Positions 10,100-42,602 of a DNA stretch of 43,570 nucleotides are shown here, piece by piece; the stretch's first letter is position 1; each line of letters starts with the position of its first letter. The notes beneath the pieces are model-generated. The model worked only from the letters and a program-made list of their open reading frames with translations, was not told the DNA's origin and ran no database searches. The DNA comes from Candidatus Fibrimonas sp. (lineage in GTDB: Bacteria; Fibrobacterota; Fibrobacteria; Fibrobacterales; Fibrobacteraceae): contig JAISSJ010000096.1 of NCBI GenBank assembly GCA_031273195.1, positions 1 to 43,570 of the forward strand, written 5' to 3'. The position numbers were made by a program, and so were the translations under genes.

Positions 10100-11491
10100 A
10101 TGAACAAAATATTTCGGCGTATTTTGCTAGCTTGTTTTGCGGTGGGGAGCGTTTGGGCGCAGAATGAGCCGTTTGCACTGGGAGCGGATATTTCCTGGAT
10201 ACCGGAAAGGGAGGCCGGCGGGGTGCGGTATGCGCACAACGGGCAGGTAAGGGATATGTTTGACATACTCAAGGAGCATAAGTTCAATTATATACGCCTG
10301 CGGTTGTTTGTTGACCCTACGGCAAAAATTTCCGGAGAAAGCGAATCCCCTTATTCCACAAAAGGATACTGTGGGCTTGATTCCACCATAAAGATGGCAA
10401 AAAGGGTAAAAGCCGCCGGAATGAAATTCCTTTTGGACTTTCACTACAGCGACACCTGGGCAGACCCTGGAAAACAGTATAAACCCGTATCGTGGCAGGG
10501 ATTGGATTTTACGCAATTAACCGCAAAAGTGCGCTCATACACAAAGGAGACCCTTGAAAAATTCAGGAATAACGATGTATTGCCGGATATGGTGCAGGTG
10601 GGCAATGAAATTGTAGGCGGAATGATATGGCCGGATGGAAGAAACAGCAATATGTCTAACTTTGCAAAGCTAATGAACGCCGGTATTGACGGAGTAAAGG
10701 ACGTTGACGCAAATATCAAAATAATGGTGCACACTATAAACGAAAGAAATCCGAATGGCTGGCTCACAAGCCTCAGAAACAATGGGGTAACCAGAATAGA
10801 CGTGTTCGGGCTTTCTTACTACACGCAATGGCATGGTAACCCCGATAGCCTGCAAAGAGTGGCAACTGCTTTTGCCACAAACAATAGCAACAACAACATA
10901 AAAATTGCCGTAGCAGAGTATTCGGGCAACCACCGTCGCGTCAACGATATAATCTTCAACTTACCGAACAACAAGGGGTTTGGAACATTTGTCTGGGAAC
11001 CAGCCGATTGGAGTGATGGTTCGTATGGAGCAACTCTCTTTGACTGGAAAAACAATCGCCGTGAAACAAATTCTTTGATAAGCCTTTACCCCCAGATGTC
11101 AATAGATTACAATATAGCTGAGCCCACCGTGTCTAGTTCCAGTTCAGCGACACCGAGTAGTAGTTCGGCAACACCAAGCAGTAGTTCAGCAACACTGAGC
11201 AGCAGTTCGGCAACATCAAGTAGCAGTTCGGTACTGTCCGGCCCTACCCCAATTCGTTTGGCCAACCCCGCCACTTCCAACCGAGCTGTGCAGATTCACA
11301 ACGGCATAAACTTGCAGGTAAAAGACAAAGCTACGGTTGAAGTTTACAATTTAAGCGGGAATCTAGTCAACAGGCAGAATTTTAGCGGCGGCACATACTC
11401 CGTATCGTTTGCCCATTTGCCAAAAGGGATGTATATTGTAAAAGTTTCCTATACCCCCAAACCTGCGATAATCGTATTGCCAAACAGATAA
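10100..11491 (+). CDS. GH53 arabinogalactan endo-beta-1,4-galactanase, secreted
   Basis: Cleaves beta-1,4-galactan side chains of pectin. A signal peptide (1-20, ending Val-Trp-Ala) is followed by a GH53 barrel (about 22-335): Gly-Ala-Asp-Ile-Ser-Trp, Tyr-Ile-Arg-Leu-Arg-Leu, Leu-Asp-Phe-His-Tyr-Ser-Asp. The acid/base is Glu170 (Gly-Asn-Glu-Ile) and the nucleophile Glu273 (Ala-Glu-Tyr-Ser). A linker of five Ser-Ser-Ser-Ser-Ala-Thr-Pro-type repeats (about 346-378) leads to a C-terminal beta domain of roughly 80 residues. This ends in Lys-Gly-Met-Tyr-Ile-Val-Lys-Val, like type IX secretion or Fibrobacter C-terminal sorting domains. TATTTT lies 12 nt before ATG, so a leaderless mRNA is expected. 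The 3' end overlaps prepilin peptidase (opposite strand) by 43 nt. Confidence 0.92.
   Translation: MNKIFRRILLACFAVGSVWAQNEPFALGADISWIPEREAGGVRYAHNGQVRDMFDILKEHKFNYIRLRLFVDPTAKISGESESPYSTKGYCGLDSTIKMAKRVKAAGMKFLLDFHYSDTWADPGKQYKPVSWQGLDFTQLTAKVRSYTKETLEKFRNNDVLPDMVQVGNEIVGGMIWPDGRNSNMSNFAKLMNAGIDGVKDVDANIKIMVHTINERNPNGWLTSLRNNGVTRIDVFGLSYYTQWHGNPDSLQRVATAFATNNSNNNIKIAVAEYSGNHRRVNDIIFNLPNNKGFGTFVWEPADWSDGSYGATLFDWKNNRRETNSLISLYPQMSIDYNIAEPTVSSSSSATPSSSSATPSSSSATLSSSSATSSSSSVLSGPTPIRLANPATSNRAVQIHNGINLQVKDKATVEVYNLSGNLVNRQNFSGGTYSVSFAHLPKGMYIVKVSYTPKPAIIVLPNR
11133..11235 (+). repeat. 21-bp coding repeat for the serine linker of the GH53 enzyme
   Basis: About five 21-bp units, each encoding Ser-Ser-Ser-Ser-Ala-Thr-Pro or a close variant (AGTAGTTCGGCAACACCAAG and similar). 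The repeat length is a multiple of three, so copy number can change without a frameshift. Units differ by synonymous changes, so expansion is not very recent. Confidence 0.75.
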
Positions 11492-29543: not shown

Positions 29544-29598
29544 ATGGGGAATGTAGAAAACCAAACGGCGTTCCCCTATAACGTAATTGCCACACACC

Positions 29599-29853
29599 GT
29601 AGGGGCAAGGCCTGCCTTGCCCTATTTGCTGTACCACGATATTTGCGCCCCTGTGCCCCGATTTCCACCAAATATGCGGCGTTTCGTTGCAAATGGGCGT
29701 TGCCTGCAACGCCCCTACGGTGGTGGCGGTCATCGCAAAATGGGTGAATTTCGTGGCAAAAAGGGCAAAAATTACCGCAAAAATGCCAATTTTCGCCGCA
29801 AAACAGGGCAAATGGCGTGGCAAAAAGGGCAAACACGCAGGTTTGCTCCTACA
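29599..29853. repeat. REP-like hairpin repeats upstream of element B
   Basis: Three copies of a roughly 24-26 bp palindrome with a CCTAC/GTAGG tail. One is at 29599-29622 (GTAGGGGCAAGG...CTTGCCC). An inverted one is at 29695-29718 (GGGCGTTG...CAACGCCCCTAC). One more is at about 29828-29853 (GGGCAAAC...GTTTGCTCCTAC). Related copies lie at 962-986 and 1002-1026, and a worn copy at about 42671-42697. The stretch between them is GC-rich and repeats words such as GGCAAAA. No gene is supported here; the long open frame through it is not convincing before 29887. Confidence 0.55.
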
Positions 29854-29871
29854 GACCCCGCAAATTTTTTC

Positions 29872-30384
29872 TATATTTACCCTCAAATGCAACCTCAGAC
29901 CTGCAAACTGCCCCTCACGCTAGACCCTCTGACACAGGCTCTGGGGCGTTTTGCGTTTAGGGGTAAAAACCTGCCCAAAAAATTGGGTTTGCGGTTTCAT
30001 GGGCTTTGCAGCCCGAAAATACGGCATTTTACCCCCCCCCCCCCCCCCCCCCCTCAGCAGGAAGCAGGTAAAACTAGCAGCTTAGAGCTTTCCTGCACAC
30101 AGGAAACCACAACGCAGAACAATTTAGTGCTTTCCCGCTGGCAGGAAACTACGTTTCATTGCTATTTACTACTTTCCTGCATACAGGAAACAGCATTTCA
30201 GAACCATTTGGGGGGTTCCTGCACGCAGGAAACAGTATTTCAGAGCAATTTGAGGCTTTCCTGCACACGGGAAACCGTATTTCAGAGCAATTTATGGCCT
30301 TCCTGCACACAGGAAACCATTATTCCGAGCCGTTTGCTTGGAGAACGTATCTGTTTTTATCAAAATAAGGAGAATAATCTATGA
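29872..30384 (+). repeat. Repeat element B: promoter-like box, leaderless-type ORF with C22 tract, running into DUF6261
   Basis: TATATT at 29872 is preceded by TTTTTTC and followed 15 nt later by ATG (29887). The core AGGCTCTGGGGCGTTTTGCG (29936-29955) and the run of 22 C at 30032-30053 match elements A and C. From 29887 the frame is open for 165 codons. It goes through Pro codons in the C tract and through the 42-bp array (as 14-residue repeats like Leu-Ser-Cys-Thr-Gln-Glu-Thr). It stops at 30382-30384, where TGA overlaps the DUF6261 ATG. The other two registers stop at 30071 and 30085, so only tract lengths of 3k+1 connect the ORF to DUF6261. Whether it is translated is unproven. Confidence 0.5.
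30089..30316 (+). repeat. Array of six 42-bp units, each with a TTTCCTG-N4-CAGGAAA hairpin
   Basis: Inverted repeats start at 30089, 30131, 30173, 30215, 30257 and 30299, an exact 42-bp period. Each has 7-bp arms around a 4-nt loop (mostly CACA or similar). Units 2, 4, 5 and 6 carry one substitution in an arm. The spacers are conserved too (ATTTCAGAGCAATTT in the best copies), so this is a tandem satellite and not a CRISPR. The array ends 64 nt before the DUF6261 ATG. Because 42 bp is four turns of B-DNA, all palindromes face the same side of the helix. Confidence 0.9.
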
Positions 30385-31130
30385 GAATAGACAGCTTTTA
30401 CAGAAAAAATCTGCGAAATGACGAGCATTTCCAGCTTAACACCGAGTTCCGAGACCTTATTATTAAGGAAGGGGCGGAAAATCTGAAGGTAGGGGAACAG
30501 TTTGCAGCCTATCAGTCTTCTTACAACAAGGAGGACGAGGGAATTAAAAGGGTTAGCAAGAGCCTTTTCACCGAGAAAATTCAGGAGGCGGACAAAGCCC
30601 GCGATGATATTTACTCCGGCATGGTGGAGATTAACGAAGGCTCGCTGAAGCACTACAATCCAAGTGTGCGGGAGGCGGCAAAGAAGCTCAAAATACTGTT
30701 TGACACTTATGGAAATCTCTCGCACAAACCGCTCAATGAGCAGACGTCGGCGGTTAATAATATTTTGCAGGAATTGAAGGGGAATTATCTTGAAGCGACC
30801 CGGACTGTTCAGATAGACGGCTGGGCGAATGAGCTTGAAGCGAGGAACAATGCCTTTGACGTGCTTGTAAAAGGTCGTGCCGATGAGGCTGCTGCCAAAA
30901 CCGATGTTGTTGTGAAGCAGGCTCGTGTTGAGCTTGACGGGGCTTATGATGCTGTTGTTGAGCGTATCAACGCTTATGCGGTGATTGAGGGCGGTGAGAT
31001 GTATGAGCGGTTTATCAAGACATTCAATTTTGTGATTGCGAAGTATAATGCTATTGTGAATGCGAGGCTCGGCAGGAGAAATCACAAGCCGGCTGGGGAG
31101 CATGAAACGGCGGAGGTAGAAAATGCTTAA
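30381..31130 (+). CDS. DUF6261 family protein
   Basis: 249 residues, nearly all helical, with no membrane segment or signal peptide. The start (Arg-Ile-Asp-Ser-Phe-Tyr-Arg-Lys-Asn-Leu-Arg-Asn-Asp-Glu-His-Phe) and the middle segment Tyr-Gly-Asn-Leu-Ser-His-Lys-Pro-Leu-Asn-Glu-Gln are what I remember of DUF6261 from Bacteroidota and Fibrobacterota. The function is unknown. AAGGAG lies 8 nt before ATG, and the ATG also overlaps the stop of the upstream element-B frame. The 3' end overlaps the next lipoprotein gene by 8 nt. Codon use is GC-balanced like the core genes. Confidence 0.8.
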   Translation: MRIDSFYRKNLRNDEHFQLNTEFRDLIIKEGAENLKVGEQFAAYQSSYNKEDEGIKRVSKSLFTEKIQEADKARDDIYSGMVEINEGSLKHYNPSVREAAKKLKILFDTYGNLSHKPLNEQTSAVNNILQELKGNYLEATRTVQIDGWANELEARNNAFDVLVKGRADEAAAKTDVVVKQARVELDGAYDAVVERINAYAVIEGGEMYERFIKTFNFVIAKYNAIVNARLGRRNHKPAGEHETAEVENA

Positions 31131-31788
31131 AACGAAAAGCTTTCTGTTAGCAGTAGGTGTTGTGCTTGCTATGGCGTTCATTTTTTCCTGTACATCGGAT
31201 ATAGAGTCGGCGGAAGAGGTTTTGGGGAAGGCGGAGAGTAGCAGTTCTTCTTTGCAGAGCAGCTCGGTGTTTTGCATGAGTGCTGTCGGTTGTGCGGAGA
31301 TGTCTGCGGAGGCTTGTTCTGCTTTTGGAGGCACAATTGTTTCATCTTGTCCGGTAAGTAGTTCTTCTTTGCTTGCCGTTAGCTCTCCTTCGGTTCAAAG
31401 CTCTTCGAGCGTTGCCGGCCCAACCAACAATTGCGCCTATCAGGCGAGTTTATGCGGTGGCATAGCATTTGACGATATAATAACCAAAAGCTTTAGCAAT
31501 GCTTCCTTAGATGAAGGCCCTAATTGCATATTTGCTCTCGGTATCACAAGATTGGGAAATGAAAATGGCCAGGGCGGCGGATTGAAGGTGAACGGAACTA
31601 AGCTTGCCGGTCAAAACAATAGCGATGTTGGCGGCAGATGCGGCAATACCGATTGGGGCCAGCAACCATGCACCGATGCGATTAGAAATATACAGAAAAT
31701 AGACGGCGGATATTATATTTATGTGCCTGCCTTTGCCGGCGATGTCACCACGACAGGCGGCAATCCTAACTGCACCGGCGGTAAATGA
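31123..31788 (+). CDS. Fibrobacter-type serine-linker lipoprotein
   Basis: 221 residues. A lipobox (Ala-Phe-Ile-Phe-Ser-Cys, Cys at 23) is followed by two or three Ser-rich linkers (about 39-48, 78-83, 90-99) and a Cys-rich segment (Cys-Met-Ser-Ala-Val-Gly-Cys). The C-terminal domain of about 120 residues starts Asn-Asn-Cys-Ala-Tyr-Gln and ends Asn-Cys-Thr-Gly-Gly-Lys. No named domain is recognised in that part. GGAGGT lies 5 nt before ATG. Right behind it, in another frame, lies the end of a FISUMP domain, so this gene may once have been longer. Confidence 0.65.
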   Translation: MLKTKSFLLAVGVVLAMAFIFSCTSDIESAEEVLGKAESSSSSLQSSSVFCMSAVGCAEMSAEACSAFGGTIVSSCPVSSSSLLAVSSPSVQSSSSVAGPTNNCAYQASLCGGIAFDDIITKSFSNASLDEGPNCIFALGITRLGNENGQGGGLKVNGTKLAGQNNSDVGGRCGNTDWGQQPCTDAIRNIQKIDGGYYIYVPAFAGDVTTTGGNPNCTGGK

Positions 31789-41495: not shown

Positions 41496-41579
41496 TTACG
41501 GCCATCGTAATAGCACACTTACGATGACCGTAATAACACGATTACGGCAACCGTAATAGCACGATTACGATGGCCGTAA
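41496..41579 (-). repeat. Array of four 23-bp units, each a TTACG-N5-CGTAA hairpin
   Basis: Palindromes start at 41496, 41519, 41542 and 41565, an exact 23-bp period. Arms TTACG/CGTAA are invariant, loops are GCCAT, ATGAC, GCAAC and ATGGC. The fourth unit is the exact reverse complement of the first. Spacers are also alike (TAGCACAC, TAACACGA, TAGCACGA). The last palindrome ends 1 nt from the stop codon of the HU-like/DUF4469 gene. Possible roles are binding sites, an mRNA 3' stabiliser or an attenuator; no protein is known to bind it. Confidence 0.9.
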
Positions 41580-41580
41580 A

Positions 41581-42327
41581 TCATAAAACCGACAAAACCC
41601 TATCAAAAACCGTATTTCTAGGCTCTTTAAGCAAGTGCTTGCTATTACCGCCGTATTGAGTGGCTATTTCCAGCTTGTAACTGCCTGCCGCCAATGCCGG
41701 GATTACAACTATCAACTCGGAAGGCTTGTTCACGGGCATTTTTGAACTAACCTTTACCCGTTCATTGGTCTCTTGGTTGATGAAATAAACGCCATTTTCG
41801 GCGTTTTCACCCGAAATTCTGATTTTGCTCCCGCTTATACGCAGATTGCGATTGGGGGTAAGCAGGTCGCTTATGCTCTCGCTCTCAATATCCGTAACTT
41901 CGTCAATGAAGAAGGTGGCTTTGTTCACGCCCGTAATCTCAACATTAATGTTCGCAAGCTCCCTGCGAAGCCGCAAACCCTGATTGAAATCAAAGGATAT
42001 CTTGTGCTTTTCGGGGTTGAACTGCTCCGTAGCCTTGTTGAACACCCCCTTAATCTTGGGCCGGACATTGAAAACGCCCGTGTTCACCGTGAAACCGTTG
42101 CATAGCAGATAGGCCATCTCGCTCAAATACAGGTCAACGGCGTGTTCCATAGCCTTGGCGGAAATATCCGCCCCGCCTCTCTGTGCCGCATAATTGCAAA
42201 CATCTTTTGAGGTGAGGGGTTTGTCCGCTACCACCCTTGCCGCAAAGTCGTTAGGGTCTTCGGTGAGCACGTTATCATATAACTCTGCTCTAATCTTGTG
42301 CTTGCGTAATTGCTCATTACTTGCCAT
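41581..42327 (-). CDS. HU-like DNA-binding protein with C-terminal DUF4469 domain
   Basis: 248 residues. The N-terminal half (about 1-125) fits the HU-like DNA-binding domain: Thr-Ser-Lys-Asp-Val-Cys-Asn-Tyr-Ala, Ala-Met-Glu-His-Ala-Val-Asp-Leu-Tyr, Asn-Gly-Phe-Thr-Val-Asn-Thr-Gly-Val-Phe-Asn-Val-Arg-Pro. The C-terminal half (about 130-248) is the Ig-like DUF4469: Leu-Thr-Pro-Asn-Arg-Asn-Leu-Arg-Ile-Ser-Gly-Ser-Lys-Ile-Arg-Ile and Asn-Lys-Pro-Ser-Glu-Leu-Ile-Val-Val-Ile-Pro. GGAGG lies 5-6 nt before ATG. Element C sits upstream and the 23-bp palindrome array directly downstream, so it is a natural candidate to bind such repeats. That link is inferred. Confidence 0.85.
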   Translation of the reverse strand: MASNEQLRKHKIRAELYDNVLTEDPNDFAARVVADKPLTSKDVCNYAAQRGGADISAKAMEHAVDLYLSEMAYLLCNGFTVNTGVFNVRPKIKGVFNKATEQFNPEKHKISFDFNQGLRLRRELANINVEITGVNKATFFIDEVTDIESESISDLLTPNRNLRISGSKIRISGENAENGVYFINQETNERVKVSSKMPVNKPSELIVVIPALAAGSYKLEIATQYGGNSKHLLKEPRNTVFDRVLSVL

Positions 42328-42425: not shown

Positions 42426-42602
42426 CTAGCAGACGGGGGGGGGGGGGGTAATTTTGATATAAGCAGGAATGCCGTTAGCATCGCATAGTCTGGGCACCTT
42501 GGGTGTTTTTTGGTCCCCCAAAAAACGTGCCGCCGAGCCTGCGGTGGAAGGTCGGGCGAGGGGCGGTTTTTGGTTCAGGGACTGCATTTATGGGGTAATA
42601 TA
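42426..42602 (-). repeat. Repeat element C: promoter-like box, 53-codon ORF, C14 tract, upstream of the HU-like gene
   Basis: TATATT (first T at 42602) is preceded by TTTTTTC and lies 15 nt before ATG (42587), as in A and B. The core AGGCTCGGCGGCACGTTTTT (minus, 42540-42521) matches the other copies. The present frame runs 53 codons (42587-42426), ending just after a C14 tract (G at 42435-42448). Its residues Pro-Ser-Thr-Ala-Gly-Ser-Ala-Ala-Arg-Phe line up with Pro-Ser-Ala-Ile-Gly-Ser-Gly-Ala-Arg-Tyr of element A. With 3k C the frame would end in TAA directly against the HU-like ATG; with 3k+1 it would overlap that start. Confidence 0.55.

Follow-up and report, generated by a model that had tools for sequence, protein, structure and literature searches.

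Tandem, helically phased sites lying beside the gene of the protein that binds them are known from the iterons of plasmid replication origins and from the centromeres of ParR-parC partition loci, and tandem phased binding sites are a familiar principle. In type III toxin-antitoxin systems, tandem RNA repeats precede the toxin gene and neutralise the toxin. The arrays described here, which adjoin genes of the DUF6261 family, resemble iteron and partition arrays in combining tandem, helically phased sites with a neighbouring gene, with binding by DUF6261 being something that we infer. They differ in that DUF6261 matches no replication or partition family, the unit differs between paralogues of the same genome, several arrays occur per chromosome and the 42-bp pitch extends across phyla. 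Like ToxIN and other type III systems (PMC8860590, PMC5086642), they have tandem repeats of comparable length immediately 5' of a gene, and the ~35-50-nt tandem repeats directly upstream that mark this class are found at DUF6261; unlike them, they come with no ToxN/AbiQ-type endoribonuclease and no RNA signature, in the window no terminator separates the array from the gene, and the repeats also occur without the gene. REP/BIME elements with their RAYT proteins (PMC3733652, PMC3116915) share with some DUF6261-bearing genomes the combination of dispersed extragenic palindromes and a dedicated gene, but DUF6261 arrays involve no tyrosine (HUH) transposase, are long, regular and fixed in pitch, and have an unrelated unit at most loci. 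BrickBuilt of Porphyromonas gingivalis, a MITE minisatellite with a 23-nt unit and a leader and tail bearing inverted repeats, is likewise tandem, genome-dispersed and from Bacteroidota, but it differs in unit length and in its flanking leader and tail, and no linked DUF6261 is described for it (PMC4596501). CRISPR arrays, too, consist of regularly spaced repeats containing palindromes, but DUF6261 arrays have no unique spacers: the spacers repeat along with the rest of the unit, which excludes CRISPR, as the first-pass annotation of this DNA had held on both counts. We found no described system in the open-access literature that combines all of these features, and we know of no counterpart to a gene family that is paired, across phyla, with arrays constant in pitch rather than in sequence.

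The window, a stretch of 43,570 nucleotides from Candidatus Fibrimonas sp., contains one such array on the plus strand at 30082..30319, where TRF reports 5.7 copies of a 42-bp unit (consensus TTAGGGCTTTCCTGCACACAGGAAACCACATTTCAGAGCAAT; 75% matches, 0% indels). A scan of the window for TTTCCTG-N4-CAGGAAA with at most two mismatches returned six sites in the array and an isolated one; shuffled windows gave a mean of 0.25 sites, and none reached seven. Both methods confirm that six palindromes follow one another at 42-bp steps without drift. All six sites initially annotated are present, but only the first (TTTCCTG-CACA-CAGGAAA, 30089..30106) and third (TTTCCTG-CATA-CAGGAAA, 30173..30190) are perfect. 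The second (TTTCCCG-CTGG-CAGGAAA, 30131..30148), fourth (GTTCCTG-CACG-CAGGAAA, 30215..30232), fifth (TTTCCTG-CACA-CGGGAAA, 30257..30274) and sixth (CTTCCTG-CACA-CAGGAAA, 30299..30316) each carry one mismatch; none of the six is assigned a strand. The isolated palindrome (10191-10208, TTTCCTGGATACCGGAAA), also with one mismatch, could be due to chance.

Ahead of the array lies a putative promoter with a -10-like TATATT, followed by a leader (29872..29960, plus strand). This module was recognised by sequence comparison, being common to other DUF6261 genes and to other genes of the window genome; a sigma-70 consensus scan did not detect it. Behind the array, a ribosome-binding-site-like AAGGAGAA (30367..30374, plus strand), with a similar motif before the paralogues, precedes the ATG of the DUF6261 gene (30381..31130, plus strand). 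Its 249-aa product matches PF19775 at E 1e-39 (136.4 bits against a cut-off of 27), and AlphaFold2 models it as all-helical with a mean pLDDT of 93.5. A Foldseek search of the model against the PDB and viral models returned nothing with E <0.001, a PDB profile search nothing significant, and PADLOC no match; PHROGs gave two weak matches only, both to families of unknown function. Searches of protein and defence families gave DUF6261 as the only informative match, with no defence, toxin, transposase, nuclease, replication or partition family. The protein has a charged tail, and D71, R74, D75, Y110 and N216 are near-invariant in the family. The window genome (1.96 Mb, about 61% complete) holds seven DUF6261 matches and encodes FISUMP/Fib_succ_major proteins, which point to Fibrobacterota as its phylum. 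In the open-access literature searched, DUF6261 received only one incidental mention and nothing on function. As to a link with phages or plasmids, the candidates were limited to a 568-kb replicon of Prevotella and a pair of unverified contigs from the human gut, and IMG/VR yielded no confirmed relative. A gene for a serine-rich lipoprotein-like product (31123-31788) overlaps the end of the DUF6261 gene.

The association recurs well beyond this locus. All four other DUF6261 genes of the window genome with a complete upstream region have an array of ~42 bp before the start codon, each with a different unit sequence. Among 91 DUF6261 genes from Fibrobacterota and Bacteroidota, for which TRF was run on up to 1.3 kb of upstream DNA, 61 have a tandem array there, and every period falls at 39-43 bp, save for three arrays of 21-23 bp. 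When spacings between neighbouring units were measured with anything from 31 to 54 bp allowed, all 266 spacings from 69 arrays lay within 40-43 bp (5 of 40, 132 of 41, 100 of 42 and 29 of 43), with a mean of 41.58 bp, or four turns of 10.39 bp each; the commonest period overall is 41 bp. The 30 genes for which TRF found no array were examined for periodicity over 56 lags against shuffles (p about 0.05 or better): 16 are significantly periodic, 14 of them at a lag of 41 or 42, and in these decayed arrays units are just about 45-60% identical, so the spacing outlives the sequence. Periodicity is thus present at about 75 of the 91 homologues and does not vary randomly, the two points on which the first-pass annotation had staked its interpretation. 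Arrays are found downstream of only 2 of 76 genes (Fisher p about 2e-20 for upstream versus downstream). Copy number varies among loci, as does the distance between array and gene, which at many loci is only about 35-60 bp.

Several loci show unusual arrangements. In one (L126), the DUF6261 gene is flanked by 41-bp arrays on both sides, with one unit apparently inverted, and resembles an element bounded by inverted array copies. In Prevotellaceae (L089, L092-L096), a cassette of DUF6261 and array sits between related large genes (about 1220 aa in P. nigrescens, without a Pfam match); the DUF6261 protein of this cassette is near-identical across several species, and the flanking DNA is more diverged.

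The sequence of the units behaves quite differently from their spacing. Units of different loci are alike only at chance level unless their DUF6261 proteins share at least about 60% identity. What they share is dyad symmetry: 72% of consensus units have at least five of six dyad pairs, versus 32% of shuffles, and 26% have all six, versus 1.9%. Complementarity also recurs, modestly, about half a period away. Within arrays, dyad columns vary less than the rest of the unit (5.3% versus 9.9%, p 3e-14). Orthologous arrays of Prevotellaceae retain the outer arms TTGC/GCAA and the flank, but their inner triplet differs on both arms in concert, appearing as CGA/TCG (TTGC-CGA/TCG-GCAA), TGA/TCA, TCA/TGA or TAC/GTA.

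Arrays are also found apart from the gene. Hoylesella marshii (G066) has six non-coding 41-bp arrays in 400 kb of evenly spaced samples, with ordinary genes in the flanks that were inspected and no adjoining DUF6261, whereas 864 kb sampled from four genomes without detected DUF6261 (G026, G081, G071, G073) contained no non-coding array of 40-43 bp. This co-occurrence rests on a small sample of genomes, and a further genome (G030) was left out of the rate because it had been sampled around its DUF6261 contigs. The palindrome of one solo array (L177) is also that of a DUF6261-linked array (L123), and this solo array has relatives at three further sites that differ in the core and agree in the flank; a solo array of another genome (L242, in G076) resembles, as judged by eye, a linked array (L132). 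Dispersed arrays are thus present in G066 and G076, whereas the window unit has no second DNA copy in its genome. The solo arrays are often found where two genes converge, in which respect they resemble repetitive elements more than operators. Besides its 41-bp arrays, the H. marshii genome (L172-L191) contains many dispersed 22-bp arrays, such as ACGTGGAGAACAAATTATCCAA, and 22-bp arrays are likewise present in G076.

We favour, with a probability of roughly one half, the explanation that these arrays are helically phased sites on double-stranded DNA, bound by DUF6261 or by a partner of it. Each array would be a row of dyad-symmetric sites, one per four turns and all on one face of the helix. 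The adjacent DUF6261 is the most economical candidate binder, perhaps as a dimer or filament; its targets would be the adjoining array and, in certain genomes, related arrays at other loci. Occupancy would probably serve to regulate the DUF6261 gene, to a degree set by the number of copies, or to organise the local DNA. This explanation is supported by the 5' position of the arrays, by a 40-43-bp pitch held despite free sequence, by dyads conserved within arrays, by co-occurrence with DUF6261 and by dispersed arrays with common palindromes. We prefer it because a fixed pitch with free sequence is what proteins assembled along one face of the DNA would be expected to produce; neither a comb of RNA hairpins nor a neutral minisatellite needs a fixed four-turn pitch. 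Cooperative binding to one face had been proposed from the window alone, and the proposal is strengthened by a spacing kept in two phyla, by the retention of dyads and by decayed arrays that keep the pitch. Against DUF6261 itself as the binder stand its lack of a recognisable DNA-binding motif and of any significant fold match. A simple autoregulatory operator also fits some loci poorly, because the distance of the array varies, the fit being worse where it is far upstream, and promoter-like sequence lies between array and gene at some of them.

Of the three options raised at the outset (operator, RNA comb or coding DNA), operator-type protein sites are thus favoured, and the RNA comb is disfavoured. 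It proposes that the transcribed array folds into hairpins, one or two to the unit, which are processed or bound by DUF6261 in the manner of a type III toxin-antitoxin system. Dyad symmetry alone is compatible with RNA hairpins as well; the array is 5' of the gene with a period in the range known for such repeats, the genes are multi-copy, and the concerted arm changes between orthologues include some G.U intermediates. Folding beats shuffles on both strands (mean z -1.23 sense and -0.97 antisense), with the sense strand slightly stronger (p 0.03), but raw folding energy is lower on the antisense strand in 42 of 70 arrays. One-sided dyad changes within arrays produce G.U 35 times and A.C 30 times (p 0.62), and, with no excess of G.U, the transcribed strand gives no hint of tolerating wobble pairs. 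Pairing at 1.5 bp from the dyad centre, that is, across a 2-nt loop, is impossible in an RNA hairpin, yet such pairs are enriched (44% versus 23%). Within their limited power, these G.U, 2-nt-gap and folding comparisons lean towards DNA. No terminator was found on the plus strand between the window array and DUF6261 (30320-30380), and the short interval at many loci is a further difficulty; Rfam has no match for the window, and defence and toxin families have none for the protein. Given the absence of a G.U excess, of a terminator in the window and of an Rfam match, together with the 2-nt-gap dyads and the arrays away from the gene, we regard the RNA comb as unlikely.

Equally hard to favour is a family of selfish, REP-like arrays that spread with help from DUF6261, as REPs do with RAYT. 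It would readily accommodate the solo arrays among ordinary genes in DUF6261-bearing genomes and their absence from the sampled genomes without DUF6261, the array with relatives at several sites, the near-identical DUF6261 and array of several Prevotellaceae species and the locus with arrays on both sides. However, DUF6261 matches no transposase or nuclease in family or fold, copy-and-paste does not predict an unrelated unit at most loci, and the array of the window occurs only once in its genome.

A functionless minisatellite generated by neutral slippage is considerably less probable still. Homogeneous units within loci, different units between them and varying copy number are what slippage would give, but the distribution of periods, constant across both phyla and even where arrays have decayed, contradicts it, as do the conservation of the dyad within arrays, the position of most arrays 5' of one gene family and their absence from the sampled genomes without DUF6261. 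The remaining option, coding DNA for 14-residue repeats, can be dismissed: the frame is real, with an ORF (29587-30384) running open through the window array simply because 42 is a multiple of three, but it has no Pfam match and is ruled out by the 41- and 43-bp periods of sister loci, which are not multiples of three.

Under the favoured explanation of phased DNA sites, DUF6261 gains a concrete and testable partner in the adjoining array. Spacing that is kept across phyla without sequence is unusual and points to a physical assembly of fixed pitch with paralogue-specific DNA addresses. We tentatively extend this to a self-addressed protein-DNA system, a possibility that we hold with considerable doubt, in which the protein assembly sets the pitch, the private address of each paralogue co-evolves with the short segment of protein that reads it, perhaps residues 3-10 of the hypervariable N-terminus, and each genome has several independent pairs whose action would extend to dispersed arrays. 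The proteins of two paralogues from a single genome (L008, L024) are 89% identical and their array units unrelated, so few residues would have to hold recognition. Their differences cluster near the N-terminus, at residues 4-11 (Fisher p 6e-6 for the first ten residues; both this stretch and the counts, which are approximate, were picked post hoc), but a scan over 105 close DUF6261 pairs did not single out the N-terminal stretch, which makes the reading segment a lead only. If confirmed, such a system would supply naturally occurring orthogonal pairs of protein and DNA and would account for the dispersed minisatellites of Bacteroidota and Fibrobacterota.

Finally, we note other repeats and neighbours in these genomes. 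A tract of 22 C (30032..30053, plus strand) separates leader and array in the window, and tracts of 19-24 C lie upstream of four other DUF6261 genes of the genus. Across the window genome poly-C tracts run to 10-24 nt and mostly follow the shared promoter/leader-like module ahead of several unrelated genes, including DUF6261 and an HU-like gene; further examples are at 42435-42448 and 922-931 of the window (both as G), at 2399-2413 and 2917-2933 of L049 and at 14855-14873 of L068. By their sequence these look like slippage (phase-variation) tracts. Other samples contained one such tract in G030 and none in G026 or G066. Genes of the HU-DNA_bdg family (PF14848) are often near short arrays with a period of 21-23 bp, as in the window (41581-42327 and 41506-41579) and at L256, L257, L259 and L260, and these arrays may be a two-turn counterpart of the four-turn arrays of DUF6261. 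Surface-protein genes of the Fib_succ_major type adjoin other arrays, for example at L005, L028 and L058.
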